This document shows positions 1,736 through 56,780 of a stretch of 64,000 nt of DNA, one piece after another (positions within the stretch are counted from its first letter, which is position 1; every line of letters starts with the position of its first letter). Below the pieces are notes generated by a model. It did not search any database and had not been told where the DNA came from. It saw nothing but the letters and a program-made list of their open reading frames with translations. The position numbers and the translations under genes are program-made. The stretch comes from Planctomycetales bacterium 10988 (GTDB lineage Bacteria > Planctomycetota > Planctomycetia > Pirellulales > Pb10988). The stretch lies in the NCBI GenBank assembly GCA_009664345.1, contig CP043547.1, positions 6,228,709 through 6,292,708 of the forward strand, given 5' to 3'.

Positions 1736-1890
1736 TAAAATGTGCTAATCCATGCATCAGAGCCTGTCTCTAAGGACTCCGTATCGGTCGCGCTCTTTCA
1801 CGCAACGTGCGCAGGCAGCGTAAAACAGAACCTCAAATGCTGCAAGGTCAGTTCATAGCTCCATCCCTACATCAGAAGGCTAGTGCTGTG

Positions 1891-2586
1891 TCAGGATTTA
1901 CTTTTTGGGTAGAGCGACTTCAGTTTGATTCGGGCGTCTGTGACTTGGAATTGCCAGTCCACCGTGCGTTGTTTTTTATTGGAGGGGTCGGACCAGGCCT
2001 TGGTTTCCGTTCGCAGGCGCTGGACGGATTCGAAGCGACGACCGCTCACGCACTGCCGGGTCATCGTGCTCAGTTCGTTTTCGGCAATGTTGAGCCAGCT
2101 TCCGTGCTTTGGCGTCCGGCGAAATTCAATCCGTCTGACCAAGCGACGAGCTTCCTCGGCCGGAAACGTTTCGTAAAAGGCTCCTTGGGTGTGCGTGTTC
2201 AGATGATCGCAGACCAGGATCACCTTTCGGGCGGAGCGATACCGTGTTGTCAGAAGTCGTTTTATTTCCATGGCCCAGTCCACTTTGGTACGTCGATCGC
2301 GAACGCGGACTTCGCGCCAGCCTGAGAGCGGTTCGGTGAACATGAAGACGCTGGCCGTTCCGCAACGTTCGTATTCGTAGTCGACACGACGAGCATGTCT
2401 CCGGGTGGCCGGGATCGGCCGACGGATTTCCTGGTGAAGCTGAACGGGTTGTTCATCCATGCACAGCACCGGATAATCGCTGTGGTAAGGTTCTTCGTAG
2501 GTATCCAGCACTTCTTCCATCGACGCAATGAATTCGGCATCGGCACCCGGAGGGATCACCCAGTACTGGACCTTGCGTTGGGTCAT
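1891..2586 (-). CDS. IS630 transposase, DDE catalytic part (orfB, copy A)
   Basis: A 231-aa protein carrying the catalytic half of an IS630/Tc1-type transposase. The DDE triad is visible: VLCMDEQPVQ (first D), VILVCDHLNTHTQG (second D) and the glutamate in HGSWLNIAENEL. It acts on the element's own ends and cuts at TA. Its ATG overlaps the stop of the upstream orfA in an ATGA arrangement, just after a run of seven A on the coding strand. It is therefore expressed by coupled reinitiation or as a frameshift fusion with orfA. The sequence is the same as in copy B. It appears intact, so the element may be active. Confidence 0.93.
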   Translation of the reverse strand: MTQRKVQYWVIPPGADAEFIASMEEVLDTYEEPYHSDYPVLCMDEQPVQLHQEIRRPIPATRRHARRVDYEYERCGTASVFMFTEPLSGWREVRVRDRRTKVDWAMEIKRLLTTRYRSARKVILVCDHLNTHTQGAFYETFPAEEARRLVRRIEFRRTPKHGSWLNIAENELSTMTRQCVSGRRFESVQRLRTETKAWSDPSNKKQRTVDWQFQVTDARIKLKSLYPKSKS

Positions 2587-3026
2587 CCCGTTTTTTTAAG
2601 GGTCTGGCGGACGGTTTCGTGACTGATCGAATCGACCAGGCCGAGCTCTACCACCTGTTCTGCCAGCAGGCGAAGCGACCAGCTCGCATAGCCTTCCGGC
2701 GGCTTTCCCAATCGCAGAGCAATCACCTTTGCTTCTTGTTTTCCGTCAAGAACTTTCTTTCTCGGAGGCGACTCGCGAGGCTTCCCGGAAAGAGCAATCT
2801 CAAATCCCTCGGTGACCAAACGCTTCCGCAGGTTCTCAACCGTCTGCACACGACAGCCGAACGCTTCGGCAATCCTGGCGTCCGTCCAGTTAGGACCGCG
2901 GACATCTGCTTTCAACAAAATCTGAGCACGCCTCACTTGTTGCGAGGACCCCTTCAGTTTCCTACAGACATCTGTCAGACGTTCACGTTCACTCTTCGAC
3001 AGTCGAACCACGTATTTCTTTTGCAT
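2583..3026 (-). CDS. IS630 transposase, helix-turn-helix part (orfA, copy A)
   Basis: The start at 3026 (MQKKYVVRL) is preferred over an upstream in-frame codon inside the terminal repeat, because GGGAGGAG lies about 7 nt before it. The product is 147 aa. It is the DNA-binding half, with a helix-turn-helix region around WTDARIAEAFGCRVQTVENLRKR and a second one around YASWSLRLLAEQVVEL (each broken here only for reference). It recognises the terminal repeats. It ends in LKKTG with a TGA that overlaps the ATG of orfB. The Arg/Lys-rich linker between the two helical regions is typical of IS630 proteins. Confidence 0.9.
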   Translation of the reverse strand: MQKKYVVRLSKSERERLTDVCRKLKGSSQQVRRAQILLKADVRGPNWTDARIAEAFGCRVQTVENLRKRLVTEGFEIALSGKPRESPPRKKVLDGKQEAKVIALRLGKPPEGYASWSLRLLAEQVVELGLVDSISHETVRQTLKKTG

Positions 3027-3110
3027 AGAATCTCCTCCCTGAGTGCCACGCAGTTTCCTCTCTTTCCACCAGATGGAAAACCCCACTTTTGAATCCTGAC
3101 GAAGCACTAG

Positions 3111-3814
3111 GTTGATAGATATTTCTACAAGCTACCCACAAAAGAAGCCCGAAGTAGCTCGGACAAAACTTTTAGAGCCATTGGTCAAAACCTAAAAAAG
3201 TAAAGCTCCCTTTACTTTTGACCACAAACTCTAATCCCTTTTCAACAAAGAAAGAAAAATGTGAATCAACAATACTGGCTCGTCCTGATCGAATCGACAG
3301 GAAATCAACGACATATTTTTAACACCAACAAACTCGCAGAAAATGTAGGGGCTTCGGAACAGCTTTATCAATTCGCAAACACGCTCTAAGAACGGATTCT
3401 ACTTCACATTCGCTTGAGGAAGTTTCTAAATGAAACCCAGGGCATTTAATTTCATCCCGAAAACGAACTCCTTATAATATGTAGTTTGTTTACACTAACG
3501 AAAAGCCCTCAGATGGCGGAAAGTCGGATGATTTAGGTGATCTCTGTGGAGGCACCATCGAGAAATTGGAAAATTCTTGCAACCCGCTGGAGGGAAACGA
3601 TTCTTGCCTTTTCAGTTTGGCATCGGTGAAGAGATGCTTTACAATAAAAAGTGTGGGAAAGAGAGGAAAACGCCAACAATTCTTTGCCTGATAGTACTCT
3701 TCTAAAAGATGCAAGAAAGAGTTCTTTTGCTGATTGCCGATGAAGAGAATGAGGTCTGGCGTTGGCCCGGCCGCTCTGTAGCTCGATGTGTTTCTTTGTA
3801 AGAACGAGGTTCTG
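3111..3814. other. Gene-poor intergenic region with one small repeat
   Basis: Apart from the repeat at 3175-3231, this AT-rich stretch shows no recognisable gene or RNA. A minus-strand ORF at 3490-3870 overlaps the start of the next gene, has no convincing ribosome site and resembles no family I know, so I did not call it. The promoter of the HEAT-repeat gene presumably lies near the right end. Confidence 0.5.
3175..3231. repeat. MITE-like repeat copy 2 (57 bp)
   Basis: The left end is GAGCCATTGGTCAAAACC and the right end ACTTTTGACCACAAACTC, an inverted match over about 16 bp. It is flanked by TTA and TAA. The interior holds a second inverted repeat (AAAGTAAAG and CTTTACTTT), so the transcript would form a long hairpin. 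It is a shorter member of the family seen at 1660, 7163 and 63229. Confidence 0.7.
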
Positions 3815-12846: not shown

Positions 12847-15800
12847 TTAGGCGGCTTTCTCAGCGACCTTTTCATTCTTGGCATTTTCAGCAGCTTCACG
12901 GGCGTAAGAACCGCTCAACCACAACAAGGTCGGGCAGGCCACGAAGATCGAGCTGTAAGTACCGACAATTACCCCGACAAGGAGGGCAAAGGCAAAGCCG
13001 TGAATTCCCGGACCACCACCGATGTAAAGAATCGCCACCACCAAGAAGGTCGTGACCGAGGTCAGCAAGGTACGGCTCAAGGTTTGGTTCACACTTTGAT
13101 TGACCATGGCGGTGGTGAGATGAGGATTTTTCCCTCGCACTTCCCGCACTCGGTCGAAGACCACGATGGTATCGTTGAGCGAATAACCAATGATCGTCAA
13201 GAAGGCGGCGACCATCGTTAGGTTGATCTTGAACGGTTCAAGCTGCAAAAGCTCGCTTCCTGGAATCGGAGCGAGATAAGCACTGATGGCGACACAACCA
13301 AGCACGACCAACACGTCATGCACCAAGGCAACCACCGCTGCAAGGCCGTAGGCAACCCGTTGGAAGCGGAACCAAATATAGCCAATGATACAAAGCAGGC
13401 TGACCACGATAGCAGCAATCGCGGCTTGTTGGGCATTGCCAGCCACGGCAGAACCGATTTTATTCGAGGTCGGGAAGTAAGGAGTATTCTCCAAGGTATC
13501 CTTGAAGGCAGCCATAATGGGCTTGGCTTCTTCAGGCGGGAGAGAGAATTCAATGACCCACTTATCAAAGGCCACTTCACTTCCTTCAACAAACTCGGGG
13601 TCTTCGGCACGAACGCGAACACGGCCTTCGGGGTCTCCTTCGCCAGCCTTTTGGAAGGCATCGGCAAGTTTGAAGAGGAGCGTCGGTTGGTTCAAGGCCC
13701 GTGCAAATTCGACAGGGAAGCGAGTTCCGCCGACAAAGCTTTGTCGCATCGAAGGAGCATCCGGAGTTGGTTCTTCCGTTTCTACTTCAGATGTTTCTTC
13801 CGACTCTTCTCCATTAGTGGAAGCTTCTTCCTCGGAGCTTTCTTCCGCTTGTCCTAAGAGAGCGGTCGAAAGCATCAACGCCTTTGAGTTGGCTCCGAGT
13901 TGAACCGGCTTTTGCGGGAACAAAGCAGCGGAATCATCCCCTTCCTCAGCAGGTTCTTCCGAGGATTCCTCACTGGAGTTTTCCGTGGAAGATTCTTCCG
14001 AATTCGATTCTTCCGTTTCGGTGGAAGTATTCTCTTCGGTTGATTCAGAAGTTTCTTCCGAGGTGTTCGAAGTATCCGGAGTCGTTTCCGTGGAAGGTTC
14101 TTCGGTGGAAGTCGCTTCTTCTGTTCCCGAAGCTGTTGGTTCTTCGATCACTTCGAAGTTTTCCAGGTCGCTCTCCAAGACGTTATGAACAAGCTTTTGC
14201 TTGAAAATATCGCTCAATTTTGTTTTGACCTGATCATCATCTTCGGTTTGGGTATTGATGATGAACTTGCGATCTTCTTCGGTATTGGAGATCAGCGGCG
14301 ATTGCAGAACGTCGCCCCCTTGTTCTTCGATACTCGTACGGACGAAGTTGATATCTTGCTGTTCTTCAAATTCCATCCAAACCGAGGTTCCCCCGGTGAA
14401 GTCGATGTCCAAAAGGTTATTGCCCCGAGTAAACGTCGAAGCCAAACCAACTCCAATGACCAGCAGCGAAATCACAAAAGCGATATGACGGCGGCCAATG
14501 AAATCAATCGCGGTACGGTCAAGAATCCGATTCATTTTCAATTCAGTCAGGAAGCGTTTGCGTTCAGCCAGATCGAAGACCGCGCGGGCGGCATAGATCG
14601 CAGTGAACATACTGAAGACAATCCCCAACCAAAGGGTGACGGCGAAGCCTTTCACTTGGTCAGTACCAATCACATACAATACTGTCGCGGTGATCAAGGT
14701 CGTCAAGTTGGCATCGACAATGGTGGTTGTCGCCCGAGCAAAACCGTTGCGGATACTCATTCGCAATGTTGCCCCGCGATCGAGTTCTTCACGAATCCGC
14801 TCAAAGATAAGGACATTCGCATCGACCGACATCCCTACCGTAAGCACAATCCCCGCCAAACCGGGCAAGGTGAAAGCGGCGTTCATGGCATACATCGCAG
14901 CAACCAGCATCAACAAGTTGAGCAACACCGCAAAGCAGGCCACAAACCCAGCGAAGCGATAATAAAACATCATAAAGATCAGCACGGCACCCAGCGAAAT
15001 CCCAATCGACCAAGCCCCAGCACGAATTGTATCTTCGCCAAGTTGCGGACCGACCAATTCATCCAAAACCGGAGTTTTATTCAAAGCTGCCGGCAAGGCA
15101 CCTCCATTGAGAATATCCACCAAATCTTGGACTTGATCCCTGGTGAATTGCCCTTGAATGATCCCTTGATTGGAAATACGAGAGTTAATCGTCGGAGCCG
15201 AATAGAGATGATCGTCCAGCACGACCCCCAGCAAGCGGCGGCGGCCAGCTTCATCGGGAAGGTTGGCACCCGTTAAAGAACTGAAGCGGCGGGCTCCGGT
15301 GCTATCAAAGGTAAAACCAACCGCCGGGAAACCACCTTCATCCTGCGTGACATAGGCTCGGGAAAGATATTCCCCCGTGACATTGTAACGATCGACTTTG
15401 ACCAAGACTTCGACTTGATCGCGAACGCGACGCCAGCCGGTTCCTTCTTCCGCACTTGGATCATAGCCAGCTGGAGTAACCGCCAGTTCGCGTTCGGCTT
15501 CGGGAAGTTCCGGGTCTTCCACACGGGCAACAGGAATCCAACGGGCACGCAATTGGCCATTTTGATCGAAGACTTTCCGCGAAAGCCCTTCTTGTTCTTT
15601 GGTTCGTTCGGCCATGCGGAGGAGATCGGTATCACGATCGTCAGCCAAGATACGGAATTGCAAGCTTCCGATATTGGTGATCACATCTTTGATTCGATCC
15701 GCTTCTTCTTGGCTGACGCCAGGCATGATGATTTGAACTTGGTTCGTGCCGAAGCGACGGATTTTCAGCTCTTTCACGCCAGCCGGGTCAATCCGATTGC

Positions 15801-16080
15801 GGACGGCGGCAATCAGGCGATCATAGTCGATCGAACCTTCTGAGGGATCAACCTTTTCTTGATCAACCTCATAAACAAGGTTCAAACCACCTGCCAGGTC
15901 GATGCCGAAGCGAGGCTGACCAAAGGCGATGATCGCACCGGAAACGGAGATGAAGAGGAAAATCCAAAAGAATCTCCATCCGTACTCCCGGACGCGTAAA
16001 GTTTGTGCGAGAAAATAAGCCAAGACTGCCGGAACGATCAGTATGGCGAGAGTAATGAGAGTGACGTAGAACGCTTGCAT
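12847..16080 (-). CDS. secDF: Fused SecD-SecF protein translocase subunit
   Basis: A 1077-aa fusion of SecD and SecF, which use the proton gradient to help complete protein export through SecYEG. The SecD half shows GIDLAGGLNLVYEV near residue 62, an extracytoplasmic P1 domain, and a TM bundle with VLTVGMSVDANVLIFERIREE. The SecF half begins near residue 530, with LDIDFTGGTSVWMEF and later IIGYSLNDTIVVFDRVREV. Unusually, the SecF extracytoplasmic region contains an insertion of about 130 residues (roughly 645-778) made almost only of Glu, Ser and Thr. Gene order tgt-yajC-secDF matches the classical tgt-yajC-secD-secF operon. The start at 16080 is preceded by AGGA about 10 nt away. Confidence 0.95.
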   Translation of the reverse strand: MQAFYVTLITLAILIVPAVLAYFLAQTLRVREYGWRFFWIFLFISVSGAIIAFGQPRFGIDLAGGLNLVYEVDQEKVDPSEGSIDYDRLIAAVRNRIDPAGVKELKIRRFGTNQVQIIMPGVSQEEADRIKDVITNIGSLQFRILADDRDTDLLRMAERTKEQEGLSRKVFDQNGQLRARWIPVARVEDPELPEAERELAVTPAGYDPSAEEGTGWRRVRDQVEVLVKVDRYNVTGEYLSRAYVTQDEGGFPAVGFTFDSTGARRFSSLTGANLPDEAGRRRLLGVVLDDHLYSAPTINSRISNQGIIQGQFTRDQVQDLVDILNGGALPAALNKTPVLDELVGPQLGEDTIRAGAWSIGISLGAVLIFMMFYYRFAGFVACFAVLLNLLMLVAAMYAMNAAFTLPGLAGIVLTVGMSVDANVLIFERIREELDRGATLRMSIRNGFARATTTIVDANLTTLITATVLYVIGTDQVKGFAVTLWLGIVFSMFTAIYAARAVFDLAERKRFLTELKMNRILDRTAIDFIGRRHIAFVISLLVIGVGLASTFTRGNNLLDIDFTGGTSVWMEFEEQQDINFVRTSIEEQGGDVLQSPLISNTEEDRKFIINTQTEDDDQVKTKLSDIFKQKLVHNVLESDLENFEVIEEPTASGTEEATSTEEPSTETTPDTSNTSEETSESTEENTSTETEESNSEESSTENSSEESSEEPAEEGDDSAALFPQKPVQLGANSKALMLSTALLGQAEESSEEEASTNGEESEETSEVETEEPTPDAPSMRQSFVGGTRFPVEFARALNQPTLLFKLADAFQKAGEGDPEGRVRVRAEDPEFVEGSEVAFDKWVIEFSLPPEEAKPIMAAFKDTLENTPYFPTSNKIGSAVAGNAQQAAIAAIVVSLLCIIGYIWFRFQRVAYGLAAVVALVHDVLVVLGCVAISAYLAPIPGSELLQLEPFKINLTMVAAFLTIIGYSLNDTIVVFDRVREVRGKNPHLTTAMVNQSVNQTLSRTLLTSVTTFLVVAILYIGGGPGIHGFAFALLVGVIVGTYSSIFVACPTLLWLSGSYAREAAENAKNEKVAEKAA

Positions 16081-16220: not shown

Positions 16221-16625
16221 TTACTCTTTAACTGCTTTTTCCTTGGTGGCTTTTTCTTCTACCATTTTGCCTTCGATCATGCTTCCGAGGATCGTGATCT
16301 TGGTGTCTTCATGGGTGCGAATCGTGATTTCGGAATCCTTGCTCTTTTCGGAAAGCTGTCGAACCCCGGTCACGACACCAATAATGCCCCCTTTGGTGAT
16401 CACACGATCGTTCTTTTTCAAGCTCTCGATCATGGACTTACGGCGGTTTTCCTGCTGCTGTTGAGGCCGGATCAGAAGCATATAATAGGCAAAGACAATC
16501 ATCAGCATGAGCGGAAGTGAGGATAGGAACCAATTTCCGTTCGGCTGCTCTGGTTGTGCTTGTTGCTGAGCAAAGAGCGTGGTGAATTCCCAAGGGAAGT
16601 GAACCCACAAAGAGAGATCGTTCAC
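16221..16625 (-). CDS. yajC: Sec translocon accessory protein YajC
   Basis: A 134-aa single-span protein that associates with SecDF. A GTG start at 16625 opens an extended N-terminus including a Q/P-rich stretch. A transmembrane helix follows (FLSSLPLMLMIVFAYYMLLI), then the family signature RPQQQQENRRKSMIESLKKNDRVITKGGIIGVV. The C-terminal tail is rich in Lys and Glu. It is 140 bp upstream of secDF on the same strand and shares its operon. Confidence 0.95.
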   Translation of the reverse strand: MNDLSLWVHFPWEFTTLFAQQQAQPEQPNGNWFLSSLPLMLMIVFAYYMLLIRPQQQQENRRKSMIESLKKNDRVITKGGIIGVVTGVRQLSEKSKDSEITIRTHEDTKITILGSMIEGKMVEEKATKEKAVKE

Positions 16626-17048: not shown

Positions 17049-18194
17049 CTATTCGATGTTACCCTGATTCCACCCTTTCATCTTTTCTTTTTTAAATTCT
17101 TCGAATCTTCCTGCTTCGATGGCGGTGCGGGCGTCACGCATGAGTTTTTGGTAATAGCAAAGGTTGTGATGGGTCAGGAGGATGGGACCAAGCATTTCCT
17201 TGCTAGCAAAGAGGTGACGAATGTAGGCCCGACTGTGCGATGAGGCCAAGGAAGGACAAGTCGGATCGAGCGGGCGAGGGTCGAGTTGATGTTTTTGATT
17301 GCGGAGCCGAAGTGGGCCTTCATCGGTGAAAGCGAGGGCGTTTCTGCCATTTCTCGTCGGCATGACACAATCGAACAGATCAATCCCTCTGGAAATGCCT
17401 TCCAAAAGATCAATCGGGGTTCCGACTCCCATCAGATAGCGAGGTTTCTCCGTTGGAAGATGCGGACAAGTGACATCAAGCATGCGGTACATCTCTTCCG
17501 GCGGTTCGCCAACGCTGAGGCCACCGACAGCATACCCGGGAAAGTTGAGTTCGGTCAAAGCTTGTGAACATTCGATTCGAAGGTCTTCTTCAAGTCCTCC
17601 TTGCACGATGGCAAAGAGTGATTGATCCTCGCGAGTCGCGGCTTGTTGGCATCGCTTCGCCCAGCGGATCGAACGTTCCATGGCGGATGCGATTTCCTCC
17701 CGTTTCGCCGGCAGGGCGATGACTTCATCGAAAACCATGGCGATATCGCTTCCGAGAGCGGCTTGGATTTCGATGGATCGTTCCGGGGTTAAATGGATCA
17801 ACCTGCCATCAATATGCGAACGGAACTGAACGCCTTCTTCGGAAACCTTCCGCTGAGCAGCTAGGCTATAGACTTGAAAACCCCCGCTATCGGTCAGAAT
17901 CGGCTTGCTCCACCCCATGAACTGATGCAGTCCGCCCAACTTTTGAACGATCTCTTCGCCGGGTCGCAAGGCGAGATGATACGTATTGCCGAGAATAATC
18001 TCCGCCCCGGTGGAGACGACTTGATCGATGGTCAAGCCTTTCACCGTTCCCAAGGTCCCCACTGGCATAAACGCCGGGGTCTGCACTTTTCCTCGCTTAG
18101 TGGTGAGTGTCCCCCGTCGAGCTTGGGTCGCTTGATCTTGCTGCTTTAGTTCAAAGGACAAAGGGCCGGTGTCACTCACGTCGTTTACTTTCAA
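17049..18194 (-). CDS. tgt: Queuine tRNA-ribosyltransferase with altered zinc site
   Basis: A 381-aa enzyme that exchanges guanine-34 for the queuosine precursor preQ1 in tRNAs with GUN anticodons. The TIM-barrel active-site motifs are intact: [13 protein letters not shown] (base-binding Asp), [17 protein letters not shown], and [17 protein letters not shown] (nucleophilic Asp). The zinc motif is unusual. Where the family has CxCxxC, this protein has C313-P-S315-L-A-S318, so only the first cysteine remains, although the later histidine ([10 protein letters not shown]) is kept. The start is uncertain: TTG at 18194 lacks a clear ribosome site, and a GTG at 18179 is an alternative. It heads the tgt-yajC-secDF group. 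Confidence 0.92.
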
Positions 18195-18218: not shown

Positions 18219-18479
18219 TCAGCAGAGAGATTCATCCCAAGGGTTTTCTAAAATCCCAAGAAGAATTAGGAATCTTGAAAACCAAGTATTTCTATATCTC
18301 AACGGAATACAACTCAAAGGCAACGGAGTGTTGGTATTCAAATCAATCGGATTTATAGGCTTGGTAAAGGGTCGGGCACCAGGACCTATTTTAATCCATT
18401 GATCAAGCGTAGTTTTTACTTCCCCGTGGGAGGTGTTTATCGTAACTTGTATTTGTGAATACTTTACCGAGTTTTCCAT
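18219..18479 (-). CDS. Small hypothetical protein
   Basis: An 86-codon ORF just upstream of tgt. The N-terminus is polar (VTINTSHGEVKTTLDQWIKIGPGARP), followed by a Pro-rich middle and LPLSCIPLRYRNTWFSR, and it ends in NPWDESLC. The composition looks protein-like rather than random. However, the ribosome site is weak and I recognise no family. It could be a real short planctomycete protein or chance. Confidence 0.4.
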   Translation of the reverse strand: MENSVKYSQIQVTINTSHGEVKTTLDQWIKIGPGARPFTKPINPIDLNTNTPLPLSCIPLRYRNTWFSRFLILLGILENPWDESLC

Positions 18480-18502
18480 TCATCAACGATATTGAAGGGT
18501 AA

Positions 18503-18544
18503 TAAAAAAGAAGACGATACTTTTGAGAGAAGCATCGTCTTCAT
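18503..18544 (-). terminator. Rho-independent terminator of the TPR/alpha-CTD gene
   Basis: On the minus strand GAAGACGATGCTT pairs with AGTATCGTCTTC, followed by TTTTTTATT. It lies about 40 bp beyond the stop codon at 18585. Confidence 0.85.
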
Positions 18545-18584
18545 CATATTCAGATCGGTTCAAATCAAGCGTGAGCGAGTGAAC

Positions 18585-19913
18585 TTATTCACCACGGAGC
18601 TTGAGATTGAAGACCCCGAGTTTTTCACGGACTTCATTGAGGCTTGTCACCCCGAAGTTTTTACATTCAAGCAAGTCGTCGGCGCTGTATCTCATCAAAT
18701 CCCCGATGGTGCTGATATTGAGACGAATCATCGCCTTGCGGGCACGCACCGAGAGATTCAAGTCGGAAACAGGCTGATTCATCATGGCCTGTTCATCCGG
18801 AGACATCTGCGAAGGATCAACTGGCATATCCGGTTGGCGGCGTTGCTCGACACTTTGGCCAAGTCGCAACCCATTCGCGGTCATCATCTCTTTGATTTCC
18901 AGCAGCGAGGTTTCGCCAAAGTTTTTACTTGCCAAGAGTTCTTGTTCGGTGATCTTGACCAAATCGCCGAGGCTATTGATTCCCATGCGTTGCAAGCAGT
19001 TGCGGGCACGAACGGAAAGCTCGAAGTTCGTCACCGGGCGAGACATAATTTGTCGCAAGTGGTCGGTGCGAGCTTGGTCCTCTTCATTGTAGACCATCGT
19101 CTTCGAGGCTTCGGCATCTTTCAGATACATCCGTGCGCGGGGATGATCGGGAACGACCGAGATGACTCGCTCGAAACATTGCGTCGCTTGATCGAAACGG
19201 CCCAAATCCTCCAAGATCAAACCAAGGTTCATCAAGGTTCCGACATGGGGAGGAAATTGAGCGGCCGATTTTTCATATAAATCTTTGGCAGCTTCGTTAT
19301 TTCCTTGGCGGTCATTTTCCAAGGCAAGCTTGAATAAGGAGCCAACATGATTAGGATTGATCTCGATCGCTTTTTCGTAAAGCTCAATACTATCAGTGGG
19401 ATCGCCTTGCATCACGGCGAGCATGGCCCCTTTTTGATAGTAGTATTCCGCCGATTGGGCTGCGGAGCCTTGTACTTCTTCCAGCATTTTCCAAGCTTTG
19501 TCGAATTCGCCAGCGTAGCGAAGCGATTCGATTTGCCCGAGGGTGCAAAGTCCCTTGTCGTAGCCTGCTTTGCCCGCTTTTTCGTAGGCTTCCTGGGCTT
19601 TGTCGAAATGTTCCAAAGCAAAATGAGATTTCGCCAGGAAGAACAAGGCCAAGGCACTTCCATCGGCCCGTTCGAGGGCTTCCACGGCGGAAGGATATTC
19701 GCCCAACAGGTAGGACCCTACCCCTAGACGGACCTTCATCGCGGGACTCAGTTCGCTTTCACGTTCTAATTCATCGACCCCTTCCCGCAATCGAGACATT
19801 TGAGAAAAGTCTCGCGAGAGCGTTTCACGGATCTGTTGAATTTCTCGGGGGCCAAACGAACTACTTGAAGCAATGGCCTGTTTGATATCCAGCTCAACTT
19901 CGGCTTGCGCCAT
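18585..19913 (-). CDS. TPR protein with two RNA polymerase alpha-CTD modules
   Basis: A 442-aa cytoplasmic protein; the ATG at 19913 follows AGGAG. Residues about 55-265 are TPR-like helical repeats (ALFFLAKSHFALEHFDKAQEAYEKA; AVMQGDPTDSIELYEKAIEINPNHVGSLFKLA; GTLMNLGLILEDLGRFDQATQCFERVI, each seen in shorter pieces). Two copies of the RNA polymerase alpha C-terminal domain follow, at about 291-355 and 379-442. In module 1 the E. coli DNA-contact positions are R302, N305, C306, G333, S336 and E339, with T335 in place of Lys298. Module 2 keeps R390, G421, S424 and E427, but has K393 in place of the Asn. It is not the polymerase subunit itself, since the N-terminal assembly domain is missing. 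I infer a promoter-DNA or polymerase-interacting regulator. A terminator follows it. Confidence 0.88.
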   Translation of the reverse strand: MAQAEVELDIKQAIASSSSFGPREIQQIRETLSRDFSQMSRLREGVDELERESELSPAMKVRLGVGSYLLGEYPSAVEALERADGSALALFFLAKSHFALEHFDKAQEAYEKAGKAGYDKGLCTLGQIESLRYAGEFDKAWKMLEEVQGSAAQSAEYYYQKGAMLAVMQGDPTDSIELYEKAIEINPNHVGSLFKLALENDRQGNNEAAKDLYEKSAAQFPPHVGTLMNLGLILEDLGRFDQATQCFERVISVVPDHPRARMYLKDAEASKTMVYNEEDQARTDHLRQIMSRPVTNFELSVRARNCLQRMGINSLGDLVKITEQELLASKNFGETSLLEIKEMMTANGLRLGQSVEQRRQPDMPVDPSQMSPDEQAMMNQPVSDLNLSVRARKAMIRLNISTIGDLMRYSADDLLECKNFGVTSLNEVREKLGVFNLKLRGE

Positions 19914-52974: not shown

Positions 52975-54111
52975 ATGAGAATCGGAGTCTCCCAACAACG
53001 GCTGATGCCTTCGCATCTTGGCAATTCACCGCTTGCCAGGGGGATGGTGACGATTCGCGATTTTTCCTCGACGTCGCAAGGGAAACGCTTTTACTTCACG
53101 GGTTCCAGCGAGTGCCAGGCGGAAGCGACCTCCATTCGTGTGGAAAATACCGACATCGGCAGACTCGAAGCGGTCTTGTTTATCGCCAGGGAGCCGCTTT
53201 CGATTCGGAAGTTGGCACAATTGGCAAATTTAGAGGATGGAACTGCCGCGCGAACCCTAGTCCAAGAACTGAATGAACGCTACGATTTACGGCATTCCGC
53301 GTTTCGTGTGGAAAAGGTCGCCGGTGGTTATCAACTATTGACCCGGCCGACCTATAGTAAATGGCTGCAACGAAGTCAGCCCAAAACGGAAACACCAACC
53401 CAGCTATCAACCCCTGCTCTGGAAACACTCTCGGTCGTCGCGTATCGCCAGCCAATCTTGAGGGCGGAACTCGAGGCGATTCGTGGCGTCAAATGTGGCG
53501 AAATTTTGCGACAATTACTCGAACGAGATTTGATTCGGATCGCCGGAAAGTCGAATGAACTAGGTAGACCCTTTTTCTACGCGACCACGAAAAAGTTTCT
53601 CCAGATGTTTGGGTTACAAGATATTGAGGACCTACCTCATTTTGATCGTTTATGTCGTAATCCCGAAGAAGAGCTAGAAGAATCTTCTGAGGAATTAGAA
53701 CCCGTTTCTCACAGTGGAACCTCTACTGACAACCCGCAAGCAAAGGATTCTGACGTGAAGTCCCAGCCGGAAGAATTCACTACCCACCTCGCTCCTGAAG
53801 ACGAAACCGCCACCTCCGTGCAAGTCCTGGAATCGATCGACGAGGATGATCTGGAAGAAGATGAATACGATGAATATGAAGTCGAAGAAGACGACGATGA
53901 GGAAGACGAAGACTACTGGGAAGAAGTAGACGACGAAGACGATGACGATGATGATTGGGATGACGACGACGAAGATGATGACGACGACTGGGATGACGAC
54001 GACGAAGACGATGATTGGGACGAGGATGAAGACGATGACTATGACGACGAGGACGAAGAAGACGACTACGATGACGAAGAGGATTGGGATGACGAAGAAG
54101 ATGATGACTAG
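52975..54111 (+). CDS. scpB: Segregation and condensation protein ScpB with very acidic C-terminal tail
   Basis: A 378-aa protein from the ATG at 52975 (an in-frame GTG at 52942 is less likely). The winged-helix ScpB core spans about residues 55-225: RLEAVLFIAREPLSIRKLAQL, FRVEKVAGGYQLLTRP, TPALETLSVVAYRQPILRAELEAIRGV and LGRPFFYATTKKFLQMFG. ScpB joins ScpA and SMC in chromosome condensation. The C-terminal ~90 residues are almost only Asp and Glu, with Trp and Tyr at intervals (DDDDDDWDDDDEDDDDDW type). The stop TAG lies exactly at the IS630 boundary, and the same stop is formed without the element. Confidence 0.93.
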   Translation: MRIGVSQQRLMPSHLGNSPLARGMVTIRDFSSTSQGKRFYFTGSSECQAEATSIRVENTDIGRLEAVLFIAREPLSIRKLAQLANLEDGTAARTLVQELNERYDLRHSAFRVEKVAGGYQLLTRPTYSKWLQRSQPKTETPTQLSTPALETLSVVAYRQPILRAELEAIRGVKCGEILRQLLERDLIRIAGKSNELGRPFFYATTKKFLQMFGLQDIEDLPHFDRLCRNPEEELEESSEELEPVSHSGTSTDNPQAKDSDVKSQPEEFTTHLAPEDETATSVQVLESIDEDDLEEDEYDEYEVEEDDDEEDEDYWEEVDDEDDDDDDWDDDDEDDDDDWDDDDEDDDWDEDEDDDYDDEDEEDDYDDEEDWDDEEDDD

Positions 54112-54118
54112 TGCTGTG

Positions 54119-54814
54119 TCAGGATTTACTTTTTGGGTAGAGCGACTTCAGTTTGATTCGGGCGTCTGTGACTTGGAATTGCCAGTCCACCGTGCGTTGT
54201 TTTTTATTGGAGGGGTCGGACCAGGCCTTGGTTTCCGTTCGCAGGCGCTGGACGGATTCGAAGCGACGACCGCTCACGCACTGCCGGGTCATCGTGCTCA
54301 GTTCGTTTTCGGCAATGTTGAGCCAGCTTCCGTGCTTTGGCGTCCGGCGAAATTCAATCCGTCTGACCAAGCGACGAGCTTCCTCGGCCGGAAACGTTTC
54401 GTAAAAGGCTCCTTGGGTGTGCGTGTTCAGATGATCGCAGACCAGGATCACCTTTCGGGCGGAGCGATACCGTGTTGTCAGAAGTCGTTTTATTTCCATG
54501 GCCCAGTCCACTTTGGTACGTCGATCGCGAACGCGGACTTCGCGCCAGCCTGAGAGCGGTTCGGTGAACATGAAGACGCTGGCCGTTCCGCAACGTTCGT
54601 ATTCGTAGTCGACACGACGAGCATGTCTCCGGGTGGCCGGGATCGGCCGACGGATTTCCTGGTGAAGCTGAACGGGTTGTTCATCCATGCACAGCACCGG
54701 ATAATCGCTGTGGTAAGGTTCTTCGTAGGTATCCAGCACTTCTTCCATCGACGCAATGAATTCGGCATCGGCACCCGGAGGGATCACCCAGTACTGGACC
54801 TTGCGTTGGGTCAT
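54119..54814 (-). CDS. IS630 transposase, DDE catalytic part (orfB, copy B)
   Basis: The translated product is identical to that of copy A (1891-2586). It has the DDE residues in VLCMDEQPVQ, VILVCDHLNTHTQ and WLNIAENEL. The start overlaps the orfA stop in ATGA, after a run of seven A. No lesion is seen, so this copy should be as functional as the other. Confidence 0.93.
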   Translation of the reverse strand: MTQRKVQYWVIPPGADAEFIASMEEVLDTYEEPYHSDYPVLCMDEQPVQLHQEIRRPIPATRRHARRVDYEYERCGTASVFMFTEPLSGWREVRVRDRRTKVDWAMEIKRLLTTRYRSARKVILVCDHLNTHTQGAFYETFPAEEARRLVRRIEFRRTPKHGSWLNIAENELSTMTRQCVSGRRFESVQRLRTETKAWSDPSNKKQRTVDWQFQVTDARIKLKSLYPKSKS

Positions 54815-55254
54815 CCCGTTTTTTTAAGGGTCTGGCGGACGGTTTCGTGACTGATCGAATCGACCAGGCCGAGCTCTACCACCTGTTCTGCCAGCAGGCG
54901 AAGCGACCAGCTCGCATAGCCTTCCGGCGGCTTTCCCAATCGCAGAGCAATCACCTTTGCTTCTTGTTTTCCGTCAAGAACTTTCTTTCTCGGAGGCGAC
55001 TCGCGAGGCTTCCCGGAAAGAGCAATCTCAAATCCCTCGGTGACCAAACGCTTCCGCAGGTTCTCAACCGTCTGCACACGACAGCCGAACGCTTCGGCAA
55101 TCCTGGCGTCCGTCCAGTTAGGACCGCGGACATCTGCTTTCAACAAAATCTGAGCACGCCTCACTTGTTGCGAGGACCCCTTCAGTTTCCTACAGACATC
55201 TGTCAGACGTTCACGTTCACTCTTCGACAGTCGAACCACGTATTTCTTTTGCAT
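54811..55254 (-). CDS. IS630 transposase, helix-turn-helix part (orfA, copy B)
   Basis: Identical in translation to copy A. Start at MQKKYVVRL with GGGAGGAG upstream. It supplies the DNA-binding half of the transposase; the catalytic half follows in an overlapping frame. Confidence 0.9.
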   Translation of the reverse strand: MQKKYVVRLSKSERERLTDVCRKLKGSSQQVRRAQILLKADVRGPNWTDARIAEAFGCRVQTVENLRKRLVTEGFEIALSGKPRESPPRKKVLDGKQEAKVIALRLGKPPEGYASWSLRLLAEQVVELGLVDSISHETVRQTLKKTG

Positions 55255-55334
55255 AGAATCTCCTCCCTGAGTGCCACGCAGTTTCCTCTCTTTCCACCAG
55301 ATGGAAAACCCCACTTTTGAATCCTGACGAAGCA

Positions 55335-56780
55335 CTAGGTAAGAATATCATGAAGGACGTGGCCATGCACATCGGTCAGGCGTCGATCAAGCCCGTTGTG
55401 ATACCAAGTGAGCTTCTCATGATCAAAGCCAAGAAGGTGCAGGACGGTGGCGTAAAAATCCCAAACGGTGCTTGGATTTACCTCCGCACGTCGGCCAAAT
55501 TCATCTGTTGCCCCGTAGCTGACCCCGCCTTGGACACCGGCTCCCATCATCCAACAGGTGAACCCATCAGGGTTGTGATCTCGACCGGCGGTCCCTTCTT
55601 GATGGGTGGGCATTCGACCGAACTCTGTTGTCCAGAGAACCAACGTATCTTCCAATAGCCCGGATTTCTTGAGGTCGGTCAATAAGGCCGCCGTCGGCTG
55701 ATCAAAGATGGGACAATGCCGCTCGTAGTCTGGCTTCAAGGTTTTATGTGCGTCCCAGTTGAGCAGCCCATCGACACCGGATGCCCGCGAAGCACAGAAT
55801 AAGTTGACATACCGAACGTCACGCTCCAATAATCGGCGGGCGAGAAGGCAATTGCGGGCATACGCAGCCTTGAGCGGATTTCTGTCTTGTGTTCCATAAA
55901 GCTGATGAACTGCCGGAGATTCCTTCGAAAGGTCGGATACTTCCGGAGCGGAGAGTTGCATTCGTGCGGCAAGTTCGTAAGCGGCAACGCGGGCTTGTAA
56001 CTCTGTTTCCGCCGGATTTTGTGCAGCGAAGTTCTGATTGAATTCGGAGAGTAACTCCCGAGAGGCAGCTTCTTGAGATTGGGTAAGTTGTCCGGGCCGG
56101 GCGAGATTACGAATGGGTTGTTGATCGCTCATCATGATCGCTTGATGACGAGCGGGAAGAAAGCCATTCGACCAATTCGCTTTCCCATTCGGCGGCTCTC
56201 CACGGATATCAGGAATTGCTACGTAGGTGGGAAGATTATCATTTTCACTTCCTAACGCATAACTGAGCCACGCCCCAGCAGTGGGAAAACCTTCCGTATC
56301 GTGGCCAGTGTTCATGAAAACACAACCTGGCCCGTGCGTGTTGGTTTTGCTTTGCAAGGAATGAACAAAGGCAATGTCATCCACATGCTCGGCCATGTGA
56401 GGAAGGAGAGAACTGATCATCTTGCCGGACTCCCCCGCCGAAACAAACGGCCAAGGACTCTTCATCAAATTCCCATTTTTCCCTTGGAAAGAAAGGAAAT
56501 CCTCCGCACCGGGCAAGGGCTTGCCATGCCACTTTTCCAGAGCAGGTTTGTATTCCCAGAGGTCCATGTGGGAGGCGGCCCCTGGGCAAAAGATTTGCAG
56601 CACGCGCTTAGCTTTGGCGGGGTGATGCGTCATTCCTTGGCCAGGCTGCCAGTTCGTTTCCTTGGCAAAGCCGCGTCCAGAGAGTAATTGCATCAGGCCC
56701 ACTCCGGCCAGCCCGGTCGTGACATTCCCTAAAAAACTTCTCCGAGTCAGGTTCGTTAGGATGTGATTCGATTGGTCCAT
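55335..56780 (-). CDS. DUF1501 family exported protein
   Basis: A 481-aa protein. GAGGAA lies about 9 nt before the ATG. The N-terminus is a twin-arginine signal (LTRRSFLGNVTTGLAGVGLMQLL). The DUF1501 core, a sulfatase/alkaline-phosphatase-like fold, has VLQIFCPGAASHMDLWEYKP, VHSLQSKTNTHGPGCVFMNTGH and the DTLVLWTTEFGRMPTHQ motif. These proteins almost always pair with PSD1 cytochromes in planctomycetes, and the PSD1 gene lies immediately upstream (64 bp). The activity is unknown. The stop codon lies at the IS630 boundary. Confidence 0.92.
   Translation of the reverse strand: MDQSNHILTNLTRRSFLGNVTTGLAGVGLMQLLSGRGFAKETNWQPGQGMTHHPAKAKRVLQIFCPGAASHMDLWEYKPALEKWHGKPLPGAEDFLSFQGKNGNLMKSPWPFVSAGESGKMISSLLPHMAEHVDDIAFVHSLQSKTNTHGPGCVFMNTGHDTEGFPTAGAWLSYALGSENDNLPTYVAIPDIRGEPPNGKANWSNGFLPARHQAIMMSDQQPIRNLARPGQLTQSQEAASRELLSEFNQNFAAQNPAETELQARVAAYELAARMQLSAPEVSDLSKESPAVHQLYGTQDRNPLKAAYARNCLLARRLLERDVRYVNLFCASRASGVDGLLNWDAHKTLKPDYERHCPIFDQPTAALLTDLKKSGLLEDTLVLWTTEFGRMPTHQEGTAGRDHNPDGFTCWMMGAGVQGGVSYGATDEFGRRAEVNPSTVWDFYATVLHLLGFDHEKLTWYHNGLDRRLTDVHGHVLHDILT

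Follow-up and report, generated by a model that had tools for sequence, protein, structure and literature searches.

A TPR protein with two RNA polymerase alpha-CTD modules, near-universal in a sample of Planctomycetota, as a possible DNA-binding adaptor

The window, by which we mean the whole 64,000-nucleotide stretch of DNA that was analysed, carries a gene, here called T, whose product joins a TPR solenoid to two C-terminal modules of the RNA polymerase alpha-CTD type. The parts of T and its conserved neighbours are listed in Table 1.

Table 1. Features of the T locus, with positions in the window and the basis of each assignment.
Feature	Position	Strand	Basis or remark
Gene T, TPR protein with two C-terminal alpha-CTD modules	18585..19913	-	442 aa; ORF, Pfam, orthologues
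TPR/helical solenoid of T, N-terminal and middle (residues 61-224)	19242..19733	-	Pfam TPR models; all-helical model
Last TPR, capping helix and charged linker of T (residues 225-288)	19050..19241	-	
alpha-CTD module 1 of T (residues 289-353)	18855..19049	-	DNA-contact set near-invariant
Inter-module linker of T (residues 354-376)	18786..18854	-	Variable, low-confidence
alpha-CTD module 2 of T (residues 377-441)	18591..18785	-	
tgt (queuine tRNA-ribosyltransferase), downstream of T	17049..18194	-	Pfam TGT E 1e-158; synteny
yajC, 134-aa ORF	16221..16625	-	tblastn to YajC orthologues, one of them Pfam YajC
secDF, end of the conserved neighbouring block	12847..16080	-	Pfam SecD_SecF

The reading frame of T opens with an ATG codon. 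The Pfam model RNA_pol_A_CTD (PF03118) matches the protein in two stretches with 141.4 bits (cut-off 23.8, E 7.3e-42), the modules scoring 76.9 and 72.5 bits when taken one by one, and TPR_2, TPR_1, TPR_8 and other TPR models lie above their own Pfam cut-offs. In phmmer comparisons, solved E. coli alpha-CTD chains match T with E values of 3e-14 to 1e-13. A chance or artefactual reading frame was ruled out by the Pfam scores, by matches throughout the phylum and by conservation among orthologues; an ORF overlapping T on the opposite strand (18492-19280, +) we infer to be antisense noise. T was also ruled out as a duplicate of RpoA, there being no match to the alpha N-terminal domain. The NCBIfam rpoA models all fall below their cut-offs, with their best stretches in the C-terminal part of the models; the RpoA equivalog TIGR02027 reaches 124 bits (cut-off 227.8), its best stretch covering model positions 213-297. 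An 86-aa ORF between T and tgt (18219-18479, -) has no Pfam match and is probably not a gene. The window also contains two identical copies of a 1,233-bp insertion sequence (1880-3112 and 54108-55340), each having a pair of overlapping ORFs with HTH and DDE_3 parts, and CTAG close to both ends; their identity suggests recent transposition.

An AlphaFold2 model of full-length T, built from a 44-sequence alignment, has a mean pLDDT of 86 and an all-helical N-terminal and middle solenoid. A fold search with the whole model ranked TPR solenoid proteins at the top and gave no alpha-CTD among the 50 matches listed, for which reason the C-terminal part was folded separately. Folded alone, the last 167 residues gave a pLDDT of 84, and in Foldseek 65 columns of this model superposed at 1.0 Å on 3n4m_C, an alpha-CTD in a complex with CAP and DNA; VIA-align placed the same chain on module 1 at 1.9 Å over 72. 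The best VIA-align match of module 1 was 9zum_B, an alpha-CTD on A+T-rich DNA (Z 12.5, 2.2 Å over 75), and that of module 2 was 8y5l_A2 (Z 12.5, 1.1 Å over 67 residues). The architecture of TPRs followed by two alpha-CTD modules, as put forward in the original prediction, is borne out by the Pfam match and by these fits: both modules superpose on the alpha-CTD at about 1 Å, which argues against the generic helix-hairpin-helix fold that had been named as the alternative, and as modelled they are true RNA polymerase alpha-CTD modules. The linker between them has pLDDT values below 50 at residues 359-364 and a mean column entropy of 3.4 bits across residues 358-376 of the orthologue alignment. 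Since the pTM values of the models are 0.58 and 0.47, we give no reading to the relative placement of the domains.

Conservation was assessed over 61 T orthologues (60 chosen loci and the window) and set beside 30 planctomycete RpoA proteins. Literature searches for a paper listing the alpha-CTD determinants returned none, and the names and residue roles used here are those of E. coli alpha: R265, N268, C269, G296, K298, S299 and E302 contact DNA, positions 259 and 261 face sigma, and V287 and R317 face activators (the 287-type face). Residues R302, N305, C306, G333, S336 and E339 of T, singled out in the original prediction as retained contacts, indeed occupy the positions of R265, N268, C269, G296, S299 and E302, and they are conserved across the phylum: module 1 has the E. 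coli residue at these six positions in 61, 56, 55, 61, 61 and 60 of the orthologues, respectively. The position of K298 is T335 in T, with threonine there in 56/61 orthologues and in 29/30 RpoA proteins. The sigma-facing pair is also maintained, with an acidic residue at the 259-type position in 60/61 orthologues (22/30 RpoA) and at the 261-type position in 58/61 (24/30 RpoA). The only orthologue without the acidic 259-type residue is the window's own T, which has N296. The RpoA of the same genome has lysine at the 261 position, the sole lysine there among the 30 RpoA proteins, and the two changes are possibly linked. On the 287-type face of module 1, V287 and R317 are variable and E286, E288 and G315 are kept, so that the sigma-like face is not the sole conserved acidic patch of this module. 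The position of E. coli K297 is lysine or arginine in 27/30 RpoA proteins and glutamate in 52/61 module 1 sequences.

Module 2 is retained in 60 of the 61 orthologues and keeps the equivalents of R265 (59/60), G296 (57/60), S299 (53/60) and E302 (60/60). Position 268 is lysine or arginine in 48/60 and position 269 is cysteine in 29 and alanine in 24 of the 60, with lysine and alanine, respectively, in the window's T; module 2 appears, from the alignment, to have drifted at these two contact positions. The one orthologue lacking the module (locus L085) is 380 aa long and stops short of it, and no frameshifted module 2 was found in the three frames downstream, up to ruvA, which indicates that module 2 can be lost. 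Both modules carry extra basic residues, at 267 and, mostly, at 272. Arginine at 267 is found in 57/61 module 1 and 49/60 module 2 sequences and in 2/30 RpoA proteins, and position 273 is methionine in 57 module 1 and leucine in 54 module 2 sequences and glutamate in 19/30 RpoA proteins. These residues are mostly foreign to RpoA, and the module surface that they mark may serve another purpose.

Across 20 genomes with both proteins, mean pairwise identity is 65.1% for module 1, 59.9% for the RpoA N-terminal part, 57.6% for the RpoA CTD, 47.8% for module 2, 47.3% for the last TPR and linker and 27.9% for the other TPRs; the TPR solenoid (residues 61-224) is the fastest-evolving of the parts of T measured in these genomes. 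Module 1 has the higher identity than the RpoA CTD in 136 of the 190 genome pairs, which are not independent of one another. Mean column entropy over the 61 orthologues is lowest in module 1, followed by module 2 and by the last TPR with its linker, and the remaining TPRs are looser. The first alpha-CTD copy of T is, by these measures, constrained more strictly than the original in RpoA.

A search of 149 Planctomycetota genomes, including that of the window, gave some match to T in all of them at E 1e-3, and a phylogenetic profile of the fusion, which had been suggested as a check, gave a strong match spanning the TPRs and at least module 1 in 139/149 (E 7.5e-45 or better). Eight of the ten genomes without a strong match (G006, G008, G031, G053, G067, G075, G091, G120, G123 and G143) are less than 90% complete; of the 88 genomes that the listed, rounded figures place at 90% completeness or more and no more than 5% contamination, 86 have T. 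The best 80 of at least 564 relatives in genome_contigs, among them Rhodopirellula baltica and Lacipirellula limnantheis, are planctomycete by title, bar one titled only 'bacterium'. A mobile origin was sought among plasmid and phage records, and a match covering 80% of T was found in 0 of 54 matching plasmid records and 0 of 8 phage records. T is probably a core factor of the Planctomycetota.

An RpoA query hits exactly three places in 42/59 genomes, as expected for one RpoA and one two-module T; the other 17 genomes have one place (2 genomes), two (9), four (4) or five (2), the window's own genome, which has a small alpha-CTD protein, being among those with four. In a tree of 153 alpha-CTD sequences over 65 columns, whose bootstrap had not settled, the module 1 sequences fall into a single clade (support 99/88), as do those of module 2 (98/87), the planctomycete RpoA sequences group with the E. 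coli alpha-CTD (99/93), apart from the T modules, and the small stand-alone protein lies on a long branch. A recent fusion from planctomycete RpoA is unsupported by this 65-column tree with its unsettled bootstrap, in which the module clades stand apart from RpoA; on these sequences T looks like an old, separate two-module protein and not like something copied late from the local rpoA. The earlier description of an alpha N-terminal domain 'replaced by TPRs' accordingly misleads, with an intact RpoA encoded elsewhere in the genome and the modules of T in clades of their own.

Clustering of 3663 ORFs drawn from the 61 loci identified RuvA as the standout neighbour of T, the largest cluster (40 loci) consisting of ORFs antisense to T. 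A RuvA profile places ruvA downstream of T on the same strand, at 0-615 bp, in 35/61 loci and 25/43 families, and in 24 of the 35 the profile match begins 0-60 bp past T. Clustering gave 36 such loci and tblastn 30 (within 400 bp); we adopted the count of 35, as clustering took in several ORFs that were wrong or antisense, and some genes escaped tblastn. By tblastn, 9 loci have ruvB downstream of T and on its strand, a number that could miss some because several of the locus stretches end 1.3-6 kb downstream. Four loci (L063, L069, L073 and L085) have the order T-ruvA-ruvB-x-spoIID-tgt-yajC-secD, in which we read x as queH (that of L063 has no match in NCBIfam); the order is T-spoIID-tgt-yajC-secD in L041 and L042 and T-tgt-yajC-secD in L036 and the window. 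The T-tgt-yajC-secDF order of the window looks like what is left of a longer block that included ruvA and ruvB. Among 29 closer relatives, tgt adjoins T in 15, and in 14 none of the tested neighbours lies downstream. The only RuvA_N match of the window's genome is about 4.3 Mb from T on the contig, or 2.4 Mb if the contig is circular. A RuvC-like gene stands between T and ruvA in L063 (E 2e-37, below the NCBIfam cut-offs), and uvrD is divergent upstream of T in 5 loci (4 families), each of which also has the T-ruvA pair. Five LexA-like patterns occur in 0, 0, 0, 2 and 0 of the 61 regions upstream of T (0.2 expected for the fourth pattern and no more than that for any other), and these patterns give little support for SOS control.

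We propose, at a probability of roughly 0.45, that T is a DNA-binding adaptor that works like a set of extra alpha-CTDs free of RNA polymerase and brings a partner to promoters. The tandem pair would bind A+T-rich DNA in the minor groove by its R265-type contacts, the acidic 259/261-type face of module 1 could simultaneously contact sigma region 4 or some other basic partner, and the TPR solenoid would carry or recruit a partner protein to the docking place. DNA binding, sigma contact, partner recruitment and localisation to promoters are all deduced; the safest of these is DNA binding by module 1, and next is recruitment by the TPRs. Several observations weigh against the promoter adaptor: the missing acidic 259 residue in the window's own T, the glutamate that prevails at the K297 position of module 1, the frequent absence of C269 and the usual absence of N268 from module 2, the arginine at 267 and methionine or leucine at 273 of both modules, and the conservation of E286, E288 and G315 beside the sigma-like face. 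In addition, the most conserved neighbour of T is ruvA, a recombination gene. A position next to sigma region 4 is favoured by the acidic 259/261 face; the linkage to ruvA speaks for recombination and opens a second reading.

According to this second reading, which we consider unlikely although it is the best placed of the alternatives, T would be an adaptor for recombination or repair, its alpha-CTD pair anchoring it to a DNA structure or to A+T-rich DNA and its TPRs bringing RuvA, RuvB/RuvC or UvrD, for instance to sites of collision between transcription and replication. The close spacing of T and ruvA in so many families, the intervening RuvC-like gene and the divergent uvrD genes are consistent with such a role, as is the finding of ruvB in so few loci, whereby, in the stretches seen, the T-ruvA link outlasts that of ruvA with ruvB. 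However, the block also contains the unrelated housekeeping genes spoIID, tgt, yajC and secDF, and genes transcribed together there need not have a common function; the T-ruvA pair is missing in 26/61 loci, the RuvA_N match of the window's genome is megabases away, and the LexA-like patterns are nearly absent. The two adaptor readings could be combined, T being a portable alpha-CTD pair that reads UP-like DNA and touches sigma without depending on RNA polymerase, while its TPRs couple the positions of promoters or RNA polymerase to Ruv/UvrD. We regard this as quite improbable, and we know of no transcription-repair coupling route of this kind from anywhere else.

A decoy is slightly less probable again: T would occupy UP-like DNA or alpha-CTD-binding activators and so lower the recruitment of RNA polymerase. 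The contact residues of T are the same as those in RpoA of the phylum and tandem modules could confer avidity, but a pure decoy would have no use for family-specific surface residues or for a TPR solenoid whose last repeat and linker are conserved, and near phylum-wide retention would better suit a positive role. Least probable is an architectural (nucleoid) protein of A+T-rich DNA, for whose function the RNA polymerase ancestry would have no bearing; it would fit the R265-type residue kept in both modules and the additional basic residues that they have at 267 and usually at 272, but not the acidic 259/261 face, which T retains at a higher frequency than do the 30 RpoA proteins.

The tail piece of RpoA also sits in a separate, near-universal protein of the Planctomycetota sample, and the ruvA linkage provides a concrete genetic handle on that protein. 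For Planctopirus limnophila there are transposon-essentiality data (PMC10632474), which bring a first functional answer on T within reach; the words 'tetratricopeptide', 'TPR', 'ruvA' and 'rpoA' are absent from the main text of that paper. Four loci of the class of P. limnophila (L037-L040) show no ruvA in the stretches covered, and if that species is like them, insertions in T would be less prone to polar effects on ruvA.

The occurrence of alpha-CTDs outside RpoA is known already, from family libraries. Five places in the genome of the window (a single contig of 6.65 Mb) match the alpha-CTD: two lie in T, and the others in a normal RpoA (332-aa frame), in a PglW kinase and in a small stand-alone protein. 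The BREX PglW kinase (NCBIfam NF033442, a model also matched by T) is a non-polymerase protein with an alpha-CTD-like stretch; it is a kinase of a defence family with a single alpha-CTD match, whereas T has TPRs and two modules. The genome's own PglW (locus L005, G000:C1 around 4104907) scores 1160 bits against a cut-off of 990 and has a PF03118 match. Small stand-alone alpha-CTD proteins are known too (NCBIfam PRK07758 'hypothetical protein'); that of the window's genome, of about 100 aa (locus L004), has, unlike T, a single module and no TPR match. In 57 genomes, its own and those of 56 relatives in the same order, the protein at L004:1438-1743 (G000:C1:3181163-3181450) has matches of E 1e-18 or better in 54, the best ones in the relatives being 63-78% identical to it; judged by sequence, it is another conserved alpha-CTD outside RpoA. 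The Streptomyces protein AfsR is, like T, a TPR-bearing transcription protein, and the abstract on it (PMC10936776) names SARP, NOD and TPR domains and no alpha-CTD of its own. A fusion of TPRs to tandem alpha-CTDs was not described in the literature searched, as judged from titles and the openings of abstracts. What may be new is the mounting of two tandem alpha-CTDs on a TPR solenoid, in a protein that nearly all genomes of the phylum sample encode, although databases may list this architecture uncommented. The closest known system remains the RNA polymerase alpha-CTD itself (PF03118; E. coli alpha 249-329), with which T shares the fold, the DNA-contact residues and the acidic 259/261 pair, module 1 being about 50% identical to the E. 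coli domain. T differs from it in the arginine at 267, the hydrophobic residue at 273, the tandem arrangement of its modules, its TPR fusion and the lack of an alpha N-terminal assembly domain. One chain tethers the alpha-CTD pair in T, just as the alpha dimer tethers that of the polymerase.
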